Assembly (NCBI GenBank): GCA_018673955.1
Contig: JABHBJ010000002.1
Coordinates: 1 to 61,634, forward strand
Length of the DNA: 61,634 bases
Reading direction: 5' to 3'
Source of the DNA: Chloroflexota bacterium
Lineage (GTDB): Bacteria > Chloroflexota > Dehalococcoidia > Lucifugimonadales > Lucifugimonadaceae
Positions 35,830 to 46,914 of the stretch are shown one piece after another. The stretch's first letter is position 1. Each line of letters opens with the position of its first letter. The notes below the pieces were generated by a model. That model did no database searches. It was not told the DNA's origin and saw only the letters and a list, made by a program, of their open reading frames with translations. Position numbers and translations under genes: made by a program.

Positions 35830-36113
35830 GACTGAGGTCAGCTCCTAGTAGGTGGATCAAAAGCGCCTGTAGTTTGGGTCAACTGTTGAAGACGGGTTGC
35901 CCAATCATACAGAGATCGAGATGCGAGTCGCAGTGTGGAGCGACTACTTAGGCAACATCTGTCTCATTTCGATCAGTGGCAATAACGATATGCCTTCTGA
36001 AAGAACGTCTTTTGGGTGCTGCGTACAGAAAGCTACCCCAGCTGTAAGTTTTTATGTAATCCGAGCGAATTTACTGTTGGTATTCGCACTTGAAACTTGA
36101 GAAAAGGAACTTG

Positions 36114-37301
36114 ATGTTAGTAGACCTTAGCCCTATTCCGATATCACCGAACGAACGCAAAATACTAAGCAAGATCGAGCAAGTCAGCGCCGAATCAGGC
36201 TCTCACTCACCCAGTATTGCCACCATTCAACTAACGATTCCAGAGATCGAAGTTGATATCGACGCCTGTTACCTGTCGAATCCGCTTGCAACCGACCTTT
36301 TCTGGTCTCATTTCAATGCCGATCTGCTCGCAGACCCCGACCACTTCAAAAGTATGCTTGAGGCATACCCTTCTCAAAACAGAGCTATTGCAGAACGTCT
36401 TTCTGGTTCGCTTGGAATCGACTCGAACCGCTTGTTCATCACCAACGGTGCAACCGAAGCGATTCAAGCTGTGCTCCACAACTACACATCACACATCCAC
36501 ATATCGATTCCAACATTCTCGCCTTATTACGAGTTTGCAGTCGATGGCACACAGGTAACTAAGTACGAGCTTGATCCCGCCAATAACTTTGCTGTAGATC
36601 CTAACGATTACGTACGATCTGTTCTTCAAAGCAATGCCGATACAGCGGTATTGATTTCACCAAACAACCCTGATGGTTATGTGATCCCAGATAGCGATTT
36701 AGATTTCATCCTTTCGAAGCTCAAGGGACTCAAAACCATCATCGTTGATGAGAGTTTTATTCACTTCTCTGATCGACCAACACCTAATGATCAATTGCCT
36801 AGTTTGGCCGGAATCACAGAGAAGTACGACAACATCACGATCGTAAAAAGCATGTCGAAGGATTTTGGTATAGCGGGTATTCGTGCCGGTTACGCAATCA
36901 TGAATCCTGAACGGGTGACACAGCTTTTGAATCACGGGTATCTGTGGAACACCAGCGGGATCGCTGAATACTTCTTTGGTCTGTTCGATCGTCCAGAGTT
37001 CTTAATTGAATATCGACAAAAATTGGCAACCTACAAGACTTACATCGATAAGTTCACCCAAACGACGTCTGCATTCGATTTCGTGCAACCTTTCCAAACC
37101 AGCGCCAATTTCCAACTAATGCAAATGCCGACTGGCATTTCGGCCGAAGTTGTAGCAGGCCTGTTGCTTGTACGACACGGTATTTACGCTCGAAGCTGTG
37201 GAGATAAAATCGGTCTCAACGGACAGTTCTTACGTGTCGCCATTCGAACAGAATCTGAGAATACGAAAATACTTAGTGCGCTCAAAGAAGTTTTGAGCTA
37301 G
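36114..37301 (+). CDS. PLP-dependent aminotransferase class I/II (HisC/CobD-like)
   Basis: A fold-type I PLP enzyme of about 395 residues, closest to histidinol-phosphate aminotransferase or threonine-phosphate decarboxylase. Visible motifs are FITNGATEAIQAVL (phosphate-binding region), LISPNNPDGYVIP, IVDESFIHFSD (the PLP-binding Asp) and KSMSKDFGIAGIRAGY (the PLP lysine). ATG 36114 has AAAGGA upstream and is preferred to TTG 36090. It is divergent from licD-like and the cytidylyltransferase gene. In Campylobacter capsule clusters, related enzymes decarboxylate phosphoserine to phosphoethanolamine, so that role is plausible here. HisC activity cannot be excluded. Confidence 0.78.
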   Translation: MLVDLSPIPISPNERKILSKIEQVSAESGSHSPSIATIQLTIPEIEVDIDACYLSNPLATDLFWSHFNADLLADPDHFKSMLEAYPSQNRAIAERLSGSLGIDSNRLFITNGATEAIQAVLHNYTSHIHISIPTFSPYYEFAVDGTQVTKYELDPANNFAVDPNDYVRSVLQSNADTAVLISPNNPDGYVIPDSDLDFILSKLKGLKTIIVDESFIHFSDRPTPNDQLPSLAGITEKYDNITIVKSMSKDFGIAGIRAGYAIMNPERVTQLLNHGYLWNTSGIAEYFFGLFDRPEFLIEYRQKLATYKTYIDKFTQTTSAFDFVQPFQTSANFQLMQMPTGISAEVVAGLLLVRHGIYARSCGDKIGLNGQFLRVAIRTESENTKILSALKEVLS

Positions 37302-37321
37302 TACGAACATCACAATCAAAA

Positions 37322-37356
37322 AAAACGCGCCAACTCATTTCGAGCCGGCGCGTTTT
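37322..37356. terminator. Bidirectional terminator
   Basis: A 10-bp perfect stem, AAAACGCGCC paired with GGCGCGTTTT, separated by a 15-base loop. It gives A-rich and T-rich flanks on each side, so it can stop transcription of both the aminotransferase gene and the convergent dehydrogenase gene. Confidence 0.8.
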
Positions 37357-37380
37357 GTATCCAAAGATTAGTCGAGAGAC

Positions 37381-38466
37381 CTAAGGCATGGATATTCCGA
37401 GGTCGAGTTCTGAACTCATCGAGTTGAACCACTCCACGACCTCTTTGTGATACGGAATACCCTTTTCCTTGCGCACTGCTGCTTCTTCGTGCTCTGGCAG
37501 CCCAGCGTAGTAGACACGATCATGACCCGGTGCAGGCTTGGTGTTCGCCAACTTGGTCAATAATCGATCCATATCGGCTTTGAACTCATCAACGTCAGTG
37601 AACGCATCGATATTGAACGCCATGACGAAAAATGAGTAGTTACGATCGGCGATAAAACCAGGGCCATTTCCAGAGAGAATTCCCGACATAATGTCGGCGA
37701 TAGCGGCAAAGCCGTAACCCTTGTGCCCCCCGTTCTCTCGAGTACCACCGAACGGCAGCATATTGAATGATCCAAAATCTGGCACATCAACCGCTTCCAT
37801 TATCGGTGAACCATCAATGTCAGCGATCCAGCCGGGTTCGAGCTTCGACCCAATCCGCCTAGTCAATGTCAGCTTGTTTGCGGCAACCTGCGTAGTAGCA
37901 ACATCGAATACAAACGGAGGCATTCTGTCGGCAGGTGCGCCCCAAGCAATAGGCTGAGTACCAAATGCCGGTTCCGCTCCGTTTGTGGGCACTTGGGCGC
38001 CTCCACCTGCCGATACCATAGCCATTCCGACCATGTCCTCTTCGATTGCCTGCATCACGTAGTAGGCAAGCATTCCGAAGTGCCGGGTATTTTTGACGGC
38101 AACTGCGCCCATACCATGCTCCCGAGCCTTCTCAATCGCAAGATTCATAGCGCGAGGCCCGAGGTGTATTCCAAGACCTTCATCGCCGTCCCACGTTGCA
38201 GTTACCGAAGACTCTCTGACAGTTTTGACTTCGGGTCGAGGGTTATATGTGCCTTCGCCGTAACTGGCGATGTAGGCTCTTAGCATGTTCGAAATCCCGT
38301 GACTTTCGCAACCACGTAGATCACTAGTCATTAACACATCAGCACAGGATTCAGCCTCATCGGCAGGGAGTCCCATCTTTTCGAACACAGCCTGCGTTCC
38401 AGCTCGAGCTTTCTCTTGTGAAACCAGTACCTGATCTTTTTCCGGAACAAGAAAATGCTTGAGCAT
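37381..38466 (-). CDS. Malate/L-lactate dehydrogenase family oxidoreductase (Ldh2 type)
   Basis: A 361-residue NAD(P)-dependent 2-hydroxyacid dehydrogenase of the malate/L-lactate dehydrogenase (PF02615-like) family, unrelated to classical LDH. Family signatures are SDLRGCESHGISN, ARAMNLAIEKAREHG-type helix, VKNTRHFGMLAYYV, VSAGGGAQVPTNGAEPAFGT, and NGGHKGYGFAAIADIMSG. It converges with the PLP enzyme across a terminator. Likely substrates are ureidoglycolate-, sulfolactate- or sugar-derived hydroxyacids. The exact one is unknown. The start ATG is at 38466. Confidence 0.85.
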   Translation of the reverse strand: MLKHFLVPEKDQVLVSQEKARAGTQAVFEKMGLPADEAESCADVLMTSDLRGCESHGISNMLRAYIASYGEGTYNPRPEVKTVRESSVTATWDGDEGLGIHLGPRAMNLAIEKAREHGMGAVAVKNTRHFGMLAYYVMQAIEEDMVGMAMVSAGGGAQVPTNGAEPAFGTQPIAWGAPADRMPPFVFDVATTQVAANKLTLTRRIGSKLEPGWIADIDGSPIMEAVDVPDFGSFNMLPFGGTRENGGHKGYGFAAIADIMSGILSGNGPGFIADRNYSFFVMAFNIDAFTDVDEFKADMDRLLTKLANTKPAPGHDRVYYAGLPEHEEAAVRKEKGIPYHKEVVEWFNSMSSELDLGISMP

Positions 38467-38588
38467 TTGTTGAACTAACCTCTCAGTTTCAGACTTTTTG
38501 GGGCGGCTTTTGCACCGTAATGCCGGCGGGATTTTACGCCTGAAAATAGAGATATGGCACCTATATTTAGGTACGTTCAGTAACTAGT

Positions 38589-38884
38589 TATGATCTGTCA
38601 GAACTCAGAGTCGGGGCAGAATCTCATCATTACTCATTTGCTGAGGAGGTATGTTAATGTCTTCCCCACACTGCTTGTCGACGTCCGTGTCCAAGAGGAG
38701 ATACCGAACTTAGCATCGATATACGATTTCTTATTGCCGAGATTGTGGAGGGCATTTCAATGAACGCACTAGTACACCGTTAAATGATCGCCAGTTACCG
38801 ACTGACATTGTTTTGATCGCTGTGCTCTGGCGGTTGAGATTCAAGTTCGGGTTTCGTGATGCCGATGAACTAACGTTGCAGTAA
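38589..38884 (+). mobile_element. Relic of the 5' part of an IS6-like insertion sequence
   Basis: An inverted-repeat-like end (GATCTGTCAGAACTCAG, 38592-38608) lies about 190 bases before a frame at 38795-38884. That frame encodes LPTDIVLIAVLWRLRFKFG and then FRDADEL. This matches the N-terminus of IS6-family transposases (the EIILLAVRWYLRF-LSYRDVEEL region). The frame stops at 38882 and the rest of the transposase is absent. The remainder of the gap 38467-38922 shows no gene. The end sequence resembles the ends found at 57380-57402 and 61213-61236. Confidence 0.5.
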
Positions 38885-38922
38885 GAATTCTCAGTCAGTC
38901 AGGTCTCACTTGCAATCCAACA

Positions 38923-39876
38923 TTAAGTTCTCACACCGAATTTAGAATTAAATTCCGCCCAATCACTATCGGAAACATTGTTGGTTGCACTCGAGAAGGC
39001 CTCTTCAAATTCTTGTGGATTGGATGGACCGGTGAGGACGATTCCATTTCCTCTAACTGGAGCACATAATGCAAACTCCATCGCAAAATCGCGAATATTG
39101 AGATCGCGTTCTCGGCACCACTCCCACATCTCGATAGCGCGTTCTACTGCGACAGGATCCAAGTGGCTTCCAACGGCAGCCGGAGGAAGGGGGGCTCCTT
39201 TCTCGACAAACGACTCGTCTGCTATTTGAAGTTTCGGTTGGGGGCCGGCGAGCATTGAGCCACCTAACGGACTTCCTATGAGAATTCCTACATCGTTCTT
39301 CAACGCGAGCGGAATAGTGGCTGACGCGAGTGATTGATCAAGCAAGGTGTAGTCCAAATATGACAATACAATGTCTATCTCACCCGTTTCTATCGCTCGT
39401 CGATGATATTCAGGCTGCCTCACTCCGATCCCAATGTGACCGATACGTCCTTTTGACTTCCAGTCGACTAACACCTCAAGGCAGGTGTCTAGTGGTGCTT
39501 CGATGTCGTATCTTGGACCATGAATTAGCACCGAATCCACATAATCTGTCTGGAGCTTTTTAAAGCTATTTTCAAGACTCCATGTGGTTGCCTTTTTAGA
39601 AAAATCACGGAGATAACGCGGATGGGAACCTACTTTCGTTTGTAGGTAGACCTGATCTCGCCATCCTCCTACCAATGCGAGGCCAAAACGTCGCTCACTG
39701 ACTCCGTAAAACGGAGATGTGTCAACGAAATTAATACCGGATTCAATCGCCCCACGTATTGTGTTAACCGCGTTTTCGTCAGATTGGCCGGGATAACCCA
39801 GATGCCCGCCACCTAAACCGAGAGCTGTCGGTTTCATCTCGGTTCGACCTAATCTTCGGGTCTCAAGAGATGCCAT
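38923..39876 (-). CDS. Aldo/keto reductase
   Basis: A 317-residue NADPH-type oxidoreductase with the TIM-barrel fold. The catalytic tetrad is visible as Asp and Tyr in NFVDTSPFYG, Lys in LQTKVGS and His in LIHGP. The N-terminus LGRTEMKPTALGLGG is typical. The sequence resembles L-galactose or D-threo-aldose dehydrogenase-like members, which act on aldoses. AAGGAAG precedes the ATG at nine bases. It is followed by a small NIPSNAP-like gene lying upstream on the same strand. A role in sugar oxidation or reduction fits the rest of the region. Confidence 0.85.
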   Translation of the reverse strand: MASLETRRLGRTEMKPTALGLGGGHLGYPGQSDENAVNTIRGAIESGINFVDTSPFYGVSERRFGLALVGGWRDQVYLQTKVGSHPRYLRDFSKKATTWSLENSFKKLQTDYVDSVLIHGPRYDIEAPLDTCLEVLVDWKSKGRIGHIGIGVRQPEYHRRAIETGEIDIVLSYLDYTLLDQSLASATIPLALKNDVGILIGSPLGGSMLAGPQPKLQIADESFVEKGAPLPPAAVGSHLDPVAVERAIEMWEWCRERDLNIRDFAMEFALCAPVRGNGIVLTGPSNPQEFEEAFSSATNNVSDSDWAEFNSKFGVRT

Positions 39877-39956
39877 TTATCGACTTCCTTAATTCGTCAG
39901 GTCAGAGCTGAGAAATCTCTGAATCGGGACAACAGCCAGCCCAACATTAAGATTGG

Positions 39957-40277
39957 CTATTCTTCAAACTTTTCAGGTGTAAATAGTTCAAGAAATTCAA
40001 TTCGCTGGCTCTCGATCAAATTTCGCACTTCACCACCAAGTTCGAGAGCCTCGACTGGTAACGTATGCCCGTCGCGAGTGGGGCTTTCAAGCGATTTGTC
40101 CGTCCATTCCAGACAAACAACGTTCTGTTCACCAGGCAGAGTGTAGCCATTGTACGAAATCCTAAATTCGCTCCGCTGCCCAGCAGCGCGGTAAGCCTCA
40201 GCCTGCTTCTGAACTAGTGTGGCTACCCTACGCGCCTCTCCGGGTTTCGTTGTGTACCAACGTCTTACGACATACAT
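39957..40277 (-). CDS. Small dimeric alpha/beta-barrel-like protein (NIPSNAP/ABM-like)
   Basis: A 106-residue soluble protein. It begins MYVVRRWYTTKPG and has a helix (EARRVATLVQKQAEAYRAAG), then two strands (EFRISYNGYTLPG and NVVCLEWTD), then a second helix at the end. This alternation fits a ferredoxin-like dimeric alpha/beta barrel such as NIPSNAP or antibiotic-biosynthesis monooxygenase proteins. No catalytic motif is certain. It is followed by the aldo/keto reductase on the same strand, about 80 bases away. AGGAT lies eight bases before the ATG. Confidence 0.6.
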   Translation of the reverse strand: MYVVRRWYTTKPGEARRVATLVQKQAEAYRAAGQRSEFRISYNGYTLPGEQNVVCLEWTDKSLESPTRDGHTLPVEALELGGEVRNLIESQRIEFLELFTPEKFEE

Positions 40278-40403
40278 TATGGCATCCTGACTATTCGACT
40301 ACTAAATATTTTAAGACGGACTATAAGTACCCGTAATTGTGGCACGAACGTCGACATTTTGGGCTGTATCACCTTGGCAAGGGTCTGTAAGGGCCCATGA
40401 GTA

Positions 40404-40883
40404 TCAAGCGATCTGGTCGACACCACTCAGTTTTTGCAATACAAGAAGTACATCATCAACGTGTCTCGTCACATTGATTTCGTCAGTGAAAGCTCCCTGG
40501 CAAATTCCGACTTTATCAACGACGAACGTTGCCCTCCGAACCGGTACTAACCCTAAAGTCCAGCTGCGCTTTACACCGAACAATTTGCTCAAATCGCCAT
40601 CTGAATCCGAAACAAGGTTAAACGGAAGATCATTCTGCTCACGAAACTGTCTATGGCTTTCAGCGTCATTGGGGCTAATACCGATTAACACAGCGTCATG
40701 ACTCAATATCTCCTCGTAGCTGTCACGGTACGAGCGGGCTTCAAGTGTTCAGCCACGGGTAAAGTCCTTCGGGTAGAAGTAAACAACGATATTCTTCTTG
40801 CCTTTGAATTCCGACGTTCGAAACGGCTCACCATTGTCTAGTTCCGTCTCGAATTCAGGGATATTCTGACCGATTTCCAGCAT
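40404..40883 (-). CDS. Probable selenocysteine peroxiredoxin (Bcp/AhpC-TSA family)
   Basis: A 159-residue peroxiredoxin that reads through one in-frame TGA at 40749-40751. The frame starts at ATG 40883. Residues 36-44 read FYPKDFTRG. The TGA is codon 45 and is followed by TLEARSYRDSYEE. In this family the same place reads PKDFTPGCT, where Cys is the peroxidatic residue, so the TGA stands precisely for the catalytic Cys. Homology continues after it without frameshift: LIGISPNDAESHRQF, FNLVSDSDGDL and ATFVVDKVGI. The usual second Cys four residues later is Arg. The product would reduce peroxides using cellular thiols. No selenocysteine machinery gene is in the window. Confidence 0.85.
40713..40734 (-). 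promoter_or_regulatory. SECIS-like hairpin downstream of the peroxiredoxin TGA
   Basis: On the minus strand, 14 bases after the TGA, a perfect 6-bp stem (CTCGTA paired with TACGAG) encloses the loop CCGTGACAGC. An extra C-G pair leaves GTGACA as the apical loop, with GU first. A short stem about 15-40 bases downstream of the UGA with a G near the start of its loop is the bacterial SECIS pattern. Its binding by SelB is inferred. Confidence 0.6.
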
Positions 40884-41205
40884 GACTTTTTTAGTGCTCT
40901 AATTCTAGTTTTGTGAGAACTCAGCTTGGCCAACTCCGGCCAGATTCTCTAGGCAATGGTTGGCTCGGCTTGAAGCTTTGCGACATCGTTCCAGCCTCAA
41001 TTCACCCGAGCAGACCGAGGTATCTTCACAACATGATGGGGTTATTCTAATTATCTGCTCTGATGGACTGGTTATCTAGGGATCTGTCAGGGAGAAGAAA
41101 ACACCTCAATCGATACGGGTGACAACGAAAGAGTCGTTAGAATCATTGTCGGATTGAGGGATTTGATTCCGTTTGGAATCTCCGGAGCAATTCATTAAAA
41201 AATAG
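40884..41205. other. Intergenic gap without a recognisable gene
   Basis: About 320 bases between the divergent peroxiredoxin and membrane-protein genes. It presumably holds both promoters. One weak hairpin (GGCCAACTCCGGCC, near 40930) and a TCTGTCAG word at about 41083 resembling the IS ends were noticed. No gene or RNA can be supported. Confidence 0.4.
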
Positions 41206-41877
41206 ATGCAGCATCAATCACACGAAAAATTAAAGCTCTCCAAATCCTATGACGTTCACAGTCGCCACGATGACGACCTAACGGCGCAGTTCGAGCAGAT
41301 TTCTGAATTTGAATTGGCAGCAGAACAGGGTGATTGGAAGAAATTCAAGAACATAGTCAATCGTGACGGTTCGGTTTTTCTAAAGCTGATGAGAAGAGAT
41401 GATGGAGATCCAAGGCTCCGATTGCCTCTTATTCAAAGCGGAGAGCTAGAAGATAGATTTACAGAGTCGCTCAAGAAGTTTGGAAAATCATGGTCACACT
41501 TGATGCCATGGTGGGCGAGGTTGGGTTACAAATACGAGGCGATGCTTACGTGGGTAAGCATGGCGCTTGTACTAGGCGCCGTTGCTGGGGCGGCGACAGG
41601 GAATTCGGGATTCGGCGGAGCATCCGGGGCTGGTGCGATATTGATCCTAATGGTTGTCGACAACTCTGAGCCGAGATTCCAAGGGAGCCCCAGATGGTGG
41701 GTGCGACTGACCTACCGTAAACCTAAATTAATGCTAAATCGATGGCGTATGGTGGTCTATCTGATTGCGGCTTTGATGATCAGTTGGGCGGCATTGGCCG
41801 ATACATTCAGGACACCTACGCAGAACTGTGAAGGGTTGAGTCCGGCAGATCTTGTTGCTCTAAACGGCTGCAATTAA
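41206..41877 (+). CDS. Hypothetical membrane protein
   Basis: A 223-residue protein that I do not recognise. The N-terminal about 110 residues are soluble and charged (for example HSRHDDDLTAQFEQISEFEL). Three hydrophobic segments follow: WVSMALVLGAVAGAATG, a glycine-rich GFGGASGAGAILILMVV, and MVVYLIAALMISWAAL. The loop between the second and third is basic and aromatic. The C-terminus has two cysteines (NCEGLSPADLVALNGC) that could form a disulfide outside. It is a single gene with no clear partner. Confidence 0.6.
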   Translation: MQHQSHEKLKLSKSYDVHSRHDDDLTAQFEQISEFELAAEQGDWKKFKNIVNRDGSVFLKLMRRDDGDPRLRLPLIQSGELEDRFTESLKKFGKSWSHLMPWWARLGYKYEAMLTWVSMALVLGAVAGAATGNSGFGGASGAGAILILMVVDNSEPRFQGSPRWWVRLTYRKPKLMLNRWRMVVYLIAALMISWAALADTFRTPTQNCEGLSPADLVALNGCN

Positions 41878-42085
41878 TCTTCCCCTATCCGCGTACCCAT
41901 ACGGTTGCCATGTAGTAATTCGAAACTTTAAAGCTGTTACATTTCATTTGAGTGAATCCAGAACAACACTTTGCGATCAGTGACCGGAGTCAAATTACTG
42001 GTCAGCAGTAGGGGTACACCACTAATTACACCTGAAATATCGCATTCTTGATGATCGGCGAGATCGAGGAATGGAGCTGGATAGG

Positions 42086-42940
42086 ATGACCGACACTTCT
42101 AATTCCCGCACCGTGGTCGTAGATGCCGCTGCGCACGCTTGGGTAGTGGGTGATCCGCTATACCCACTGGATCCCGCAATCGCTACTTGCCCGGACAACA
42201 TGCCGGTGATCGACGAGTCTGCTGAGCACTTGATCGCCCGTATGAACACGCTTGGAATCGATGAAACCGTAATCAGCCATGTTTGCTATTACGGTCGAGA
42301 CAACAGTTATACGGCACATTGCGTGAACTCTTACCCGGAGAGATTCACCGGGGTGGGTTTGCTGGTAGGTTATCGACTACATTCTCCTGACGATTATGAA
42401 AATCCGGCAAGGCTCGAACGTCTCATGCGCGAGGATGGACTCTCTGGGTTACGACTCAGTCCGATTTACGATCCAAACGCCGTGTGGTTGAACGATCCAG
42501 TGTCCTACCCGCTGTGGAACAAGGCTCAAGAGCTAGGTGCCGTGTTCAACATATTCGCCGCACCACACCAAATTGCCCAGATAGGCGACATGGCGGCTCG
42601 TTTCCCTGGGGTCAATATCGTGGTCGACCACTTCGCCATGATCGACATCACTGCCTCTGATGTAGAGGGCTTCAACCCCCTACTCGATCTTCGAAAGTTT
42701 CCGAACGTTTATATTCGAACGTCATTGCACAACCCGTCTCGTCAGGAACTTCCGTATACAGACATGTGGCCTTACCTCGAACGGGCATATGACTCGTTCG
42801 GACCGCAAAAGCTGATCTACGCCTCCGATTACGAGCTGCTTATCATGAAGGATTTGATCCCGTTCTTTACATCAGAGGATAAAAAATGGATTCTCGGGCG
42901 AAACGCGTTGTCCATATATCGGGACAATATACGCACCTAA
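42086..42940 (+). CDS. Amidohydrolase family protein (amidohydrolase_2 type)
   Basis: A metal-dependent hydrolase or decarboxylase with a TIM barrel, about 284 residues. It starts VVVDAAAHAWVVG, where the usual DxHxH metal motif is reduced to a single His. Other family landmarks are the segment VVDHFAMIDI (His) and LIYASDYELL (the catalytic Asp). ATG 42086 has GGAG nine bases upstream; an ATG at 42071 adds five residues. Members act on lactones, amides or aromatic acids. It precedes the unclassified barrel protein and the second ABC system, so it may process a solute taken up by that transporter. Confidence 0.8.
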   Translation: MTDTSNSRTVVVDAAAHAWVVGDPLYPLDPAIATCPDNMPVIDESAEHLIARMNTLGIDETVISHVCYYGRDNSYTAHCVNSYPERFTGVGLLVGYRLHSPDDYENPARLERLMREDGLSGLRLSPIYDPNAVWLNDPVSYPLWNKAQELGAVFNIFAAPHQIAQIGDMAARFPGVNIVVDHFAMIDITASDVEGFNPLLDLRKFPNVYIRTSLHNPSRQELPYTDMWPYLERAYDSFGPQKLIYASDYELLIMKDLIPFFTSEDKKWILGRNALSIYRDNIRT

Positions 42941-43104
42941 CCTGATTCGTTACGCCGATGTGCAAAGCCTTCTTCATAGAGATCTTTTCGACAGATCAGT
43001 TGAGAGAATTACAACGAAGGACCGGTCGATGGCTGCTAGAATCTCGCCATTCACGACCGTAGAAAGTACTTCGAAACTCACTTTGCCTCAGAAAAGAGCT
43101 GATT

Positions 43105-44841
43105 TTGACAATCGTACTGAACACTCCCTTTTCACCTCCTCAATGGGCATTACTTGAACGGGAATTATTGAACGCGCAAACGCTGGCATGCGAGCGAATA
43201 TTCGACAAATATTTTGACGAACGCGGGTACCTACTTTGTATCCCGCGATGGGGTGGGAACGACGGGTCGGATGACGCCATCGAAAACCTTGCAGGTTGGC
43301 CTGTACTCCACGCGCTCGGCGCACCTGATTCCATTCTTAAAATGTACAAACTGGGATGGGAAGGCCATCTTCTCCAGTACACAGAAGCCAAAACTGTCGA
43401 CGTGGAGCTGGCTCGCGACGGGATGCTCTACAAGGAGTTCCCGGTTAGTCTCGACTGGTTTCACCACGGCGAGAGCATGAGCGTTTTCAATCTTCAGGGG
43501 TTGTCCGATCCTGAAGATTCATCGTTCTTGACTAGGGTTCGACGTTATGCCGGCCTTTACATGGATGAAGACCAGCAGGCTAAAAACTATGATCCCGAAC
43601 ATAAGATCATCCGCAGCCTGTTCAACGGCAGCCGTGGCCCCCTCTTACGAAAGGCGACCGCCCTTGATTGGGCTGGTGATCCGTTTGAGGCTGAAGGAAG
43701 ATTCGACGCGGCACATGGTGAACGAAATTTCGACGAGATGCTCGCACACTTCGAAGAGTACACCGACATCGTCGGCGACCACCCCATCAATCTGGCAGCA
43801 ACCACCATGGCGGTGAACGCCTACATGGCGACAGGTGATCAGAAATATAAGAAATGGCTGCTGGAATATGTGGATGCATGGGCTCAGCGCGCCAAGGACA
43901 ACAATGACATTCTCCCAAGCAATATCGGGTTGGACGGAACAATAGGTGGCGAGTGCGATGGTAAATGGTACGGAGGTTGCTACGGCTGGGGATTCACGGT
44001 GGTAGTGCCACAGACCGGCGAGTTGTCGAACCGCAATGCACTGTACCGGGGAGTTGCCGGATTCGGTAATGCCCTACTGATCACGGGAGATCGGTCTTAC
44101 ATCGATGTGTGGAGGAAGATGCTCGAGTCCGTTAACGGAAATTCAAAAAACGAGAACGGGAAAACGCTCTATCCGCACATGTTTGGGGATGATGGCTGGT
44201 ACGGATTCGACGAACTGCCGTACAGCTGGGGTGCTCTCGACATCTTCTACTGGTCGATGGATGCCGCCGATCGTAAATATGTACCAAGTTCTGAGTGGTT
44301 GAAGTTTCTCGACGGTAACTCGGCAGAATTTCCTGTGTCAGCAATGGAAGATGAGTTCAGTTCGATCCGTCAGAAGATGAAAGGTGTTGAAGAAGACACG
44401 AGTTCGCCGGACACGCGACTGTCAGACAACACTCTCCAATTCAATACTGCAAACCAAACCTGCTTAACTCAACTGATGATGGGCGGTCTTACACCACGGT
44501 TCGGTGAGCCGCTCCATGCGAGGGTGCGCTATTTTGATCCGACCAAGCGACGTGCAGGTATCCCTGAAGACGTAGCTGCATTGGTAGTAGGCATGTCGGA
44601 CACTACGACAACGCTATCGCTCGCAAACATTAGCCCGGTGAAATCCAGAAAAATGATTATTCAAGCCGGGGCTTACGCTGAACATCAAATCATTTCGGTC
44701 GAAGTAGATGGTGAAATTATCGCAATTAACGGAACTTTTCTCACTCTTGAGCTTCGTCCGAGCACAGTTTCGACAATTGTTATGCGGTTAGAGAGATACA
44801 TCAATCAGCCGACGTTTTCGCACCCTTGGGATAGGTCATGA
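43105..44841 (+). CDS. Uncharacterised protein, possible alpha/alpha-barrel hydrolase
   Basis: A 578-residue soluble protein with no family I can name with confidence. It has repeated helix-turn-helix segments rich in Trp, Tyr and Gly (for example LAGWPVLHALGAP, NLAATTMAVNAYMATGDQKY and YRGVAGFGNALLITGDRSYID). This pattern resembles six-hairpin glycosidases. The C-terminal about 120 residues look like a beta-sandwich. No signal peptide is present. The start is TTG with AAAGAG upstream. It lies between an amidohydrolase and a peptide-type ABC system, so it may hydrolyse a transported oligosaccharide. Confidence in the gene is high; its function is unproven. Confidence 0.7.
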   Translation: MTIVLNTPFSPPQWALLERELLNAQTLACERIFDKYFDERGYLLCIPRWGGNDGSDDAIENLAGWPVLHALGAPDSILKMYKLGWEGHLLQYTEAKTVDVELARDGMLYKEFPVSLDWFHHGESMSVFNLQGLSDPEDSSFLTRVRRYAGLYMDEDQQAKNYDPEHKIIRSLFNGSRGPLLRKATALDWAGDPFEAEGRFDAAHGERNFDEMLAHFEEYTDIVGDHPINLAATTMAVNAYMATGDQKYKKWLLEYVDAWAQRAKDNNDILPSNIGLDGTIGGECDGKWYGGCYGWGFTVVVPQTGELSNRNALYRGVAGFGNALLITGDRSYIDVWRKMLESVNGNSKNENGKTLYPHMFGDDGWYGFDELPYSWGALDIFYWSMDAADRKYVPSSEWLKFLDGNSAEFPVSAMEDEFSSIRQKMKGVEEDTSSPDTRLSDNTLQFNTANQTCLTQLMMGGLTPRFGEPLHARVRYFDPTKRRAGIPEDVAALVVGMSDTTTTLSLANISPVKSRKMIIQAGAYAEHQIISVEVDGEIIAINGTFLTLELRPSTVSTIVMRLERYINQPTFSHPWDRS

Positions 44842-45065
44842 TACCGGCCAAATACCACTTCTATTATTCAACCTACAGGCTACAGGGTTGTCAGCTCAGT
44901 GATAAAAGATGCCCAGAGTCGATTTAAATAGTTAAACACGTTTGATATCAACAAATGCATAGTGTACGGTCACTGCAACGTGACTAGTTCACTAAAACCA
45001 TAGTAACTCCCAGTACCTAAATTAGTGGGAATCAGTTGATGTCATCCGAACAGAAGAGACTTATC

Positions 45066-46784
45066 ATGAATAGAGTTCGATATCGAGGCCTCATCTTGCT
45101 GCTGATCGCATCAGTCGCAATGATTGTTACGGCCTGTAGTAGTGATCCGGTTGTTGAAACCGTAATCCAAACAGTTATTGTCGCTGAAAAGGGAGACACG
45201 ATTACCGTCGTAGCCACTCCGACCGCAACGCTAGAAGAGCGGACACTGGCAACTGCGGACGCTAAAAAGGGTGGACACCTTAGGGTTGCGTCTGTCGGGA
45301 GTGTCCAGTCGTTCGATCCGTTGTGGACCACAGCGTCCTCGACAGGAAATGTTTCAAGCATGATTCTCGAAGGGTTGTTTGCCTATAAGGAAGACAACAC
45401 AATTGGGAAGATGCTCATAGATGATTGGAAAGTCAGCTCTGACGGACTTAAGTGGACATTCAAAATTCGTGAAGGTGTTGAATTCCACAACGGTATTTCA
45501 CTCACCACAGACCAAGTTATTGGTACGCTCAGGCGCCAGAGTGAACGCGCCCCAGTGTTTAAATTGGTTTGGGAACAGTTTGGACCGACCTCATTCGATG
45601 AGTTCATTACCAAAGACAGTGATCTAGAGTTCAGCATGAACTTGACAGGGTCGACCGGGCTTGTACTGGACGCATTGGGTCCACAAAACTTCGCACCTCA
45701 AATGGTGCTTTCTGCCTGGTACAGCCTTCCCGCGACGGAATCGGCTGAGGGAACTCCAATTGGAACCGGCCCGTATCGTTTTGAATCCTGGACTCCAGGC
45801 GACCGGTGGTCTGCGATTCCTTTCGCAAACTACAGTCCGAGTACTGAAGCATCTGATGGTGAGTCGGGAGCACACACAGCGTTCTTTGACCGAGTTTCAT
45901 ACATCGAAATTCCAGATCAGGCGACGCGTATTGCAGCTCTCCAAACTGATGCAGTTGATCTCGTCCAGGAATTCTCCCAGGACCTTATCGACCGTGTGAA
46001 GGCAGACTCTAACCTTCAGTTAATTGCCAACCCGCCACTCCGGTTACTTGGTCACTTCAACTACCAAATACCGCCGTTCAACGATCCAGAACATGGTCGA
46101 GACCTCCGACGTGCGGTTGTTATGGCTTACGACAATGAAAAGGCCCTGCTGGCAGCAGCAGGAACTCCTGACCGAATCAACCTCTGTGCTTCATTGATGG
46201 AGTGTGGTTCGGCATGGGAAAACAATGCTGGCAGCGAGAACATGTACAACGCTAAACGCATTGAAGATGCCAAGAAAATTGTGAAAGATGCCGGATACGA
46301 GGGCTACACGATTCGCCTGATGGATCCGGCTGACCGCCAGCCTGCACACGGTGCAGCGCAGGTGACTCGTGAGGTACTCGAAGACATTGGCTTCAACGTA
46401 GATCTACGAGTGATGGACTGGGCCACCATGGTTCAGGACAGAGCAACGGTAGACCGTTGGGAGTTCTTCCACACATGGAGCGGACGCAGTGTACGGATTG
46501 GACCGATTGGTCACCTTAGGTTCGGTGAACTGCAATACGAAGCGTGGTTCAACCAATACTCCGACACAGACGGAATCCAGCGTAAGTCATTCGAGACATT
46601 CGCTTCAGAAACCGACCCTGCGAAGATAAATGCTGCGATGGATGAGTTCCAACAATACTTCTACGACGATGCGATCTTCCTCCAAGTTGGTGAGTTCTTC
46701 AGCAACTGGGCAGCCAGCAATCAGATCGAAGGATTGCACGGCAACCCGGGTGGACAGAAGCCATACGACAAGTGGTTCAAGTAG
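45066..46784 (+). CDS. ABC transporter substrate-binding lipoprotein (SBP_bac_5, DppA/OppA-like)
   Basis: Solute-binding lipoprotein of the second importer, about 572 residues. The signal peptide has a basic start (MNRVRYRG), a hydrophobic core and a lipobox VTAC near residue 24. A Thr/Ser-rich linker follows (VIQTVIVAEKGDTITVV). The SBP_bac_5 core includes HLRVASVGSVQSFDPLW, WTFKIREGVEFHNG, GTGPYRFESW and DLRRAVVMAYDNEKAL. ATG 45066 is preferred; ATG 45036 adds ten residues before the signal. It is the first gene of a five-gene importer. Peptides, glycosides or nickel-like solutes are possible cargo. Confidence 0.9.
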   Translation: MNRVRYRGLILLLIASVAMIVTACSSDPVVETVIQTVIVAEKGDTITVVATPTATLEERTLATADAKKGGHLRVASVGSVQSFDPLWTTASSTGNVSSMILEGLFAYKEDNTIGKMLIDDWKVSSDGLKWTFKIREGVEFHNGISLTTDQVIGTLRRQSERAPVFKLVWEQFGPTSFDEFITKDSDLEFSMNLTGSTGLVLDALGPQNFAPQMVLSAWYSLPATESAEGTPIGTGPYRFESWTPGDRWSAIPFANYSPSTEASDGESGAHTAFFDRVSYIEIPDQATRIAALQTDAVDLVQEFSQDLIDRVKADSNLQLIANPPLRLLGHFNYQIPPFNDPEHGRDLRRAVVMAYDNEKALLAAAGTPDRINLCASLMECGSAWENNAGSENMYNAKRIEDAKKIVKDAGYEGYTIRLMDPADRQPAHGAAQVTREVLEDIGFNVDLRVMDWATMVQDRATVDRWEFFHTWSGRSVRIGPIGHLRFGELQYEAWFNQYSDTDGIQRKSFETFASETDPAKINAAMDEFQQYFYDDAIFLQVGEFFSNWAASNQIEGLHGNPGGQKPYDKWFK

Positions 46785-46914
46785 AGAACATTCGGATCGA
46801 CCGAAAATAAGATCCTCCAAACGCTAGGGAGCAATGCAAACGTTGCACGCTCCCTAGCTATGGGAGGAAACCTATTGATCGGCTTTCCAGAACGTAAATT
46901 ACTTCAAGCTATTA

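Follow-up and report, generated by a model that had tools for sequence, protein, structure and literature searches.

The window, a stretch of 61,634 bp that forms contig C48 of a Dehalococcoidia draft genome (2.21 Mb in 103 contigs, 87.1% complete and 1.85% contaminated), carries on its reverse strand a gene for a probable selenocysteine (Sec)-containing peroxiredoxin of 159 residues. The read-through translation from 40404 to 40883 gave YFYPKDFTRG, the internal TGA and then TLEARSYRDSYEE, with the TGA at codon 45 as the only one inside the frame that opens at ATG 40883, and this bore out the frame described in the first-pass annotation. The terminal stop of the gene is likewise a TGA. Calling of ORFs with table 11 started at the TTG codon at 40706, and the first 59 of the 159 residues were therefore lost together with the active site, leaving an ORF of 100 aa; a loss of the N-terminal part and the active site in conventional annotation had been predicted for this gene. 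The coordinates of the features discussed here are as in Table 1.

Table 1. Features of the peroxiredoxin gene, the window and the genome discussed in the text; positions without a contig name are those of the window, and an empty cell means that no entry is available.
Feature	Position	Strand	Basis or remark
Sec-containing PrxQ/Bcp-like peroxiredoxin (very probable), 159 residues	40404..40883	-	ATG 40883 to stop TGA 40406-40404
In-frame TGA, codon 45, very probably read as Sec; peroxidatic position (PxxxTxxU)	40749..40751	-	class alignment column
Codon 50, CGC (Arg); column where most of the PrxQ rows compared have the resolving Cys	40734..40736	-	alignment
Codon 128, TGC; sole Cys left in the protein	40500..40502	-	kept in 4/4 genus members with the Sec gene
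Truncated ORF of 100 aa, TTG start 40706, as reported by a conventional caller	40404..40706	-	table 11 ORF calling
Candidate bSECIS hairpin, +18 to +39 (U of UGA = +1)	40713..40734	-	home-made hairpin search
AhpC-TSA/Redoxin protein with C-terminal Thioredoxin_10, 415 aa	4462..5709	-	no in-frame TGA
tRNA-Sec	C11:8564-8657	-	ARAGORN tRNA-SeC, anticodon TCA (UCA)
Thioredoxin gene	C11:8784-9077	-	128.1 bits, above cut-off
SelB	C46:21196-22302		above curated cut-off
SelA	C53:31141-32478		above curated cut-off
SelD, further TGA candidate selenoprotein gene	C96:55507-56436	+	CAG-U-AGK; above curated cut-off
Further TGA candidate selenoprotein gene	C29:5836-6234	-	redox motif
Further TGA candidate selenoprotein gene	C3:12467-12814	+	redox motif
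Further TGA candidate selenoprotein gene	C71:11801-12178	+	redox motif
Further TGA candidate selenoprotein gene	C53:4862-5170	+	redox motif
Further TGA candidate selenoprotein gene	C20:8161-8418	-	redox motif

A tblastn search (E 1e-6) with eight neighbour genes from window positions 36000-46800 gave no match beside the gene in three congeners, for which stretches of about 11 kb were compared in two genomes; in the third the contig ends 169 bases from the gene, and the stretch compared was 9.1 kb. The neighbours were thus unmatched although the peroxiredoxin itself is up to 92% identical in these congeners, and no function could be read from the context. A scan of the window for further TGA-interrupted frames produced four candidates, which were judged by eye and found unconvincing; two of them merely lengthened apparent ABC-transporter ORFs upstream. 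The sensitivity of the scan was low: the peroxiredoxin gene overlaps a 120-aa ORF of the opposite strand and was missed for that reason. A separate protein of 415 aa in the window combines an AhpC-TSA/Redoxin domain with a C-terminal Thioredoxin_10 domain and has no in-frame TGA.

The read-through product, with U entered as C in the profile search, matched PF00578 (AhpC-TSA) with 107.9 bits (E 4.2e-31, cut-off 26) over residues 4-127, and the homology therefore runs on both sides of the TGA without a break, as had been proposed. The PxxxTxxC/U motif is present as P38, T42 and U45, while the active-site arginine (R117) and the glycine directly preceding the peroxidatic residue (G44) were invariant in both alignments, A1 and A2. 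A Gly immediately before the peroxidatic residue is given as a trait of the PrxQ/Bcp subfamily in the excerpt cited (PMC5302317). The nearest NCBIfam equivalogs were also those of PrxQ/Bcp, at 88.7 of the 140 bits required for NF006960 and 88.9 of 260 for NF053650; since both cut-offs were missed, the protein is labelled PrxQ/Bcp-like. The AlphaFold2 model, computed with Cys substituted for Sec, had a mean pLDDT of 93.2, and the closest solved fold to this predicted model was 3drn, the Bcp1 of Sulfolobus solfataricus (TM 0.90 by query length, 40% identity), which was the best solved relative by sequence as well (E 1.8e-34). The protein is accordingly predicted by the model to have the Prx fold. 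Bcp1 shares the Gly before the peroxidatic residue, but the window protein differs from PrxQ/Bcp proteins such as Bcp1 in that its peroxidatic residue is probably Sec and not Cys, and in having no Cys at column 50. The PrxU of Eubacterium acidaminophilum, isolated as a selenocysteine peroxiredoxin (Sohling 2001, as cited in an excerpt of PMC13188914), is similar in being a Sec peroxiredoxin from a bacterium; however, the PrxU profile NF040737 (peroxi_PrxU, 233 positions) gave 49 of the 270 bits required, which places PrxU in another, longer subfamily.

Of 393 genomes of the class that were surveyed, 266 had homologs with E values of 1e-8 or below. Among the matches listed, 14 rows contained one TGA and six contained one TAG or TAA. 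Alignment of 44 class rows, composed of 30 loci as returned and 14 fetched for their stops, showed U in the peroxidatic column of 14 rows and Cys in 30. The TGA fell in this column in 14/14 TGA rows among the matches listed; the six TAG or TAA rows among those matches had Cys there and their stops lay near the C-terminal end, with the exception of the truncated row L070, in which the stop is at the end of the match. For the best 80 GTDB loci among the matches listed, which were chosen by a motif ending before the active-site residue, Cys was present in 79 and U in one (the row of congener G362). Column 45 of the read-through product aligned to peroxiredoxins thus contained Cys or U in all of these rows, in agreement with the placement of the TGA at the position of the peroxidatic Cys in the first-pass annotation.

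Six genomes of the genus were sampled, including that of the window, and the TGA gene was found in four. The congeneric proteins showed 92% (G362), 91% (G374) and about 61-62% (G190) identity to the window protein, and the G190 copy carries its TGA in a single-contig genome of 3.1 Mb. The copy with 92% identity, that of G362, corresponds to the TGA-bearing gene on CAJXEJ010000058.1 (isolate ERR598946_bin.133, an uncultured Dehalococcoidia bacterium). At position 42, the Thr of TxxU, G374 (row L036) has Ala and G190 has Ser. Compared with G190, changes at third codon positions exceeded those at second positions both before the TGA (18 vs 5) and after it (57 vs 19), so that both flanks look constrained as protein. 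The other two congeners, G248 and G366, showed weak matches only; a tRNA-Sec of at least 66 bits was found in G366 and none in G248 (96% complete), in which the Sec trait may have been lost.

Searches of the genome for tRNA-Sec, SelA, SelB and SelD, the machinery on which the first-pass annotation had made its reading depend, found all four above curated cut-offs. The tRNA-Sec scored 66.4 bits (cut-off 47) and was called tRNA-SeC by ARAGORN; SelA scored 515.9 bits, SelB 326.9 bits (345.8 bits with its neighbour in frame) and SelD, which has an in-frame TGA of its own, 363.2 bits. A second tRNA-Sec match above the cut-off, with 53.7 bits, was identified by ARAGORN as tRNA-Ser(GCT), and only matches of at least 66 bits were therefore counted in other genomes; in the search of 43 genomes the next match below that group had 54.1 bits. 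A tRNA-Sec of at least 66 bits was present in 25/43 genomes, namely in 11/13 with a Sec row and in 14/30 others, the latter being a non-random set picked for close genes or stops. The Sec-row genomes without one, under the stricter filters used, were G005 (80% complete) and G324 (75%).

The genome contains 12 places with PF00578 similarity, of which five have one TGA, including the window gene, and seven have none; one of the thioredoxin-like places also has a TGA. Overall, searches of single families yielded six additional candidate selenoprotein genes, comprising a second peroxiredoxin, thioredoxin-fold and Prx-like proteins and SelD, which mark the genome as rich in such candidates. The read-through motifs of the five candidates other than SelD were FTGG-U, WASW-U-MC, GGW-U-PYC, YC-U-INC and NT-U-TAC, the FTGG-U protein being the second TxxU peroxiredoxin of the genome. 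Together with the window gene these make seven, and in each of them the hairpin energy, taken as a raw value, was at or below -6.1 kcal/mol; the hairpin of the window gene was the weakest of the seven. The thioredoxin gene on contig C11 has the same orientation as the tRNA-Sec, and about 130 bases separate the two. The best match to thioredoxin reductase reached 273.4 bits, under the cut-off of 343.45.

A candidate bSECIS hairpin follows the TGA of the window gene. It consists of a 6-bp stem, CUCGUA/UACGAG, and one C-G pair with an apical loop of GUGACA, and the identical stem is present in all four genus members with the Sec gene. The search rules required at least four pairs with one 1x1 mismatch allowed, a loop of 3-14 nt whose first base falls between +17 and +38, and a G in the first two loop positions, following the known rules for the loop G and loop position of bSECIS elements. 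Under these rules a hairpin of -5.3 kcal/mol or lower was found in 14/14 Sec rows, 1/30 class Cys rows and 11/79 GTDB Cys rows, at a threshold set post hoc by the weakest Sec row. Rank tests, which were not post hoc, separated the Sec rows from the class Cys rows with p 9e-8, and with p 8e-5 when six clade representatives were used. The hairpin stretches had a G+C of 0.58 for the Sec rows; among the Cys rows it was 0.61 in the class set and 0.50 in the GTDB set. On resampling of synonymous codons, the window hairpin was matched in 5.95% of 2000 and 6.8% of 500 sequences, and the fractions for the Sec rows taken singly ranged from 4.0 to 35.6%, none being under 4.0% (n=14). Minimum free energy folding of four stretches around the TGA was no better than that of dinucleotide shuffles (z -0.75 to +0.84). 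Synonymous changes over the hairpin affected 3/10 codons against 40/82 elsewhere in the comparison with G190, which is no significant deficit (p 0.22), and the deficits against G362 and G374 were also non-significant (p 0.73 and 0.67). The hairpin of the window is thus weak or marginal by itself, but the contrast between Sec and Cys rows is clear.

An interrupted gene of this kind could also be a Cys-type PrxQ in decay after a nonsense mutation to TGA. Only one base change separates a Cys codon from TGA, some of the seven PF00578 places without TGA could cover the peroxiredoxin function, and Ala for Thr42 in G374 would fit decay as well. Such a history is nevertheless contradicted by the conservation of the TGA across the genus, where it stands at the same codon in four genomes down to 62% protein identity. 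The protein-like constraint on both sides of the TGA in the comparison with G190, the presence of Sec machinery in the genome and the position of 14/14 TGAs at one column among the matches listed argue against it too, and we regard a pseudogene as very improbable. For an error of sequencing, assembly or binning, the fragmented state of the draft with its incompleteness and contamination given above would be a ground, and the occurrence of the TGA in three more genomes, including the single contig of G190, contradicts it to the point that this explanation is practically negligible.

Another way to save the frame is that UGA is read as some residue other than Sec, through a general change of the code or near-cognate read-through, and no direct chemical evidence opposes this. 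A general change sits poorly with the TGA that serves as the normal stop of the peroxiredoxin gene and with the long table-11 ORFs that fill the window. The tRNA with a UCA anticodon is itself the tRNA-Sec of 66.4 bits, and SelA, SelB and SelD accompany it, which leaves the insertion of another residue extremely unlikely. The selenocysteine reading of codon 45 made in the first-pass annotation is therefore supported: on the frame, the homology, the conserved TGA, the Sec machinery and the hairpin, the gene very probably encodes a Sec-containing PrxQ/Bcp-like peroxiredoxin.

From these sequence data we infer the insertion of Sec, the peroxidase activity and the reductant as follows. The hairpin, which starts 14 nt past the UGA of codon 45, would recruit SelB with Sec-tRNA(UCA), which would insert Sec as the peroxidatic residue of the Prx fold. 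Sec45 would lie early in the predicted helix 43-54, and its selenolate, aided by Thr42 and Arg117, would attack H2O2 or an organic peroxide and be converted to a selenenic acid. Because Arg50 replaces the local resolving Cys, the selenenic acid would most likely be reduced by an outside thiol, either thioredoxin or a small thiol, in a 1-Sec cycle; Cys128 would be a less likely internal partner. The Ala in place of Thr42 in G374 is a counterpoint, being odd for an active peroxiredoxin.

The first-pass annotation had correctly given Arg for the resolving Cys but had placed it four residues after the peroxidatic position; the usual PrxQ spacing is five, which corresponds to column 50, and many but not all PrxQ/Bcp proteins have this Cys. 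Its description of a one-Sec enzyme with no nearby resolving Cys agreed with Arg50, but the protein is not free of Cys, as Cys128 is present. The window protein and its counterparts in the three congeners all have Arg at column 50. With the truncated row L070 and row L082, a copy of L035, left out of the counts and the tree, column 50 of the 14 Sec rows held R in seven, A in four and C in three, and Cys occupied it in 26/29 class Cys rows and 53/79 GTDB Cys rows. The resolving Cys was thus missing from 11/14 Sec rows compared with 3/29 class and 26/79 GTDB Cys rows. In a tree of 122 rows, Sec required six changes, at least four of them on well supported branches; with only four independent supported pairs a sign test cannot reach 0.05, and the link between Sec and the loss of Cys50 is a hint only. 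It may tentatively be suggested that Sec gain in PrxQ accompanies repeated loss of the local resolving Cys, with selenium making the internal thiol dispensable and Cys128 or an outside partner substituting for it in the genus of the window, although we consider this generalization rather doubtful.

A refinement of the Sec reading, and not a rival to it, is that Cys128 resolves Sec45 within the chain or across a dimer. Cys128 is present in 4/4 genus members with the Sec gene, all of which lack Cys50, and almost every other class row extending to column 128 has Ile or Val there. On the other hand, Cys128 lies at the start of strand 127-132 of the predicted model, in a hydrophobic column, and it is absent from the seven other Sec rows without Cys50; a resolving role for it is unlikely. 

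The lineage of the window is one that we take to be SAR202. ERR598946 is presumably a Tara Oceans sample, and on that basis the organism would be marine. Among the titles listed in a search of the PMC literature, none dealt with Sec-peroxiredoxins of SAR202 or Dehalococcoidia, which is not a claim of absence from print. Sec-peroxiredoxins as a kind are not new and, according to the excerpts of two reports, have long been known and are abundant in marine samples: in the Sargasso Sea set of 2005, TxxU Sec-Prx ranked second in abundance among known selenoprotein families, with 43 genes (COG1225; PMC1088965), and 253 Sec-Prx members (pfam00578) were found in the Global Ocean Sampling (PMC2398784). 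As far as those excerpts go, the marine proteins resemble the window protein in domain family, in Sec at the TxxU position and in having widespread Cys homologs. They differ in being metagenomic sequences, whereas here one genome joins the gene to the Sec machinery. A bacterial survey of 2006 counted 12 Prx selenoproteins, with apparently five Cys-to-Sec events, and three selenoproteins in Chloroflexi that are not named in the part of its text available (PMC1794560). The motif PxxxTxxU for peroxiredoxins is given in an excerpt of a review of 2026 (PMC13188914).

The present gene adds to this a Dehalococcoidia genome to which the family can be linked, and a protein with Arg50 at the site of the nearby resolving Cys. 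A real annotation error is corrected, in that 59 N-terminal residues of the 159 are recovered along with the active site, and a selenoprotein family of ocean metagenomes is tied to a genus of Dehalococcoidia that has the full Sec machinery. Finally, the occurrence of Arg or Ala at the column of the resolving Cys in Sec rows raises the testable question of how a peroxiredoxin benefits from selenium.
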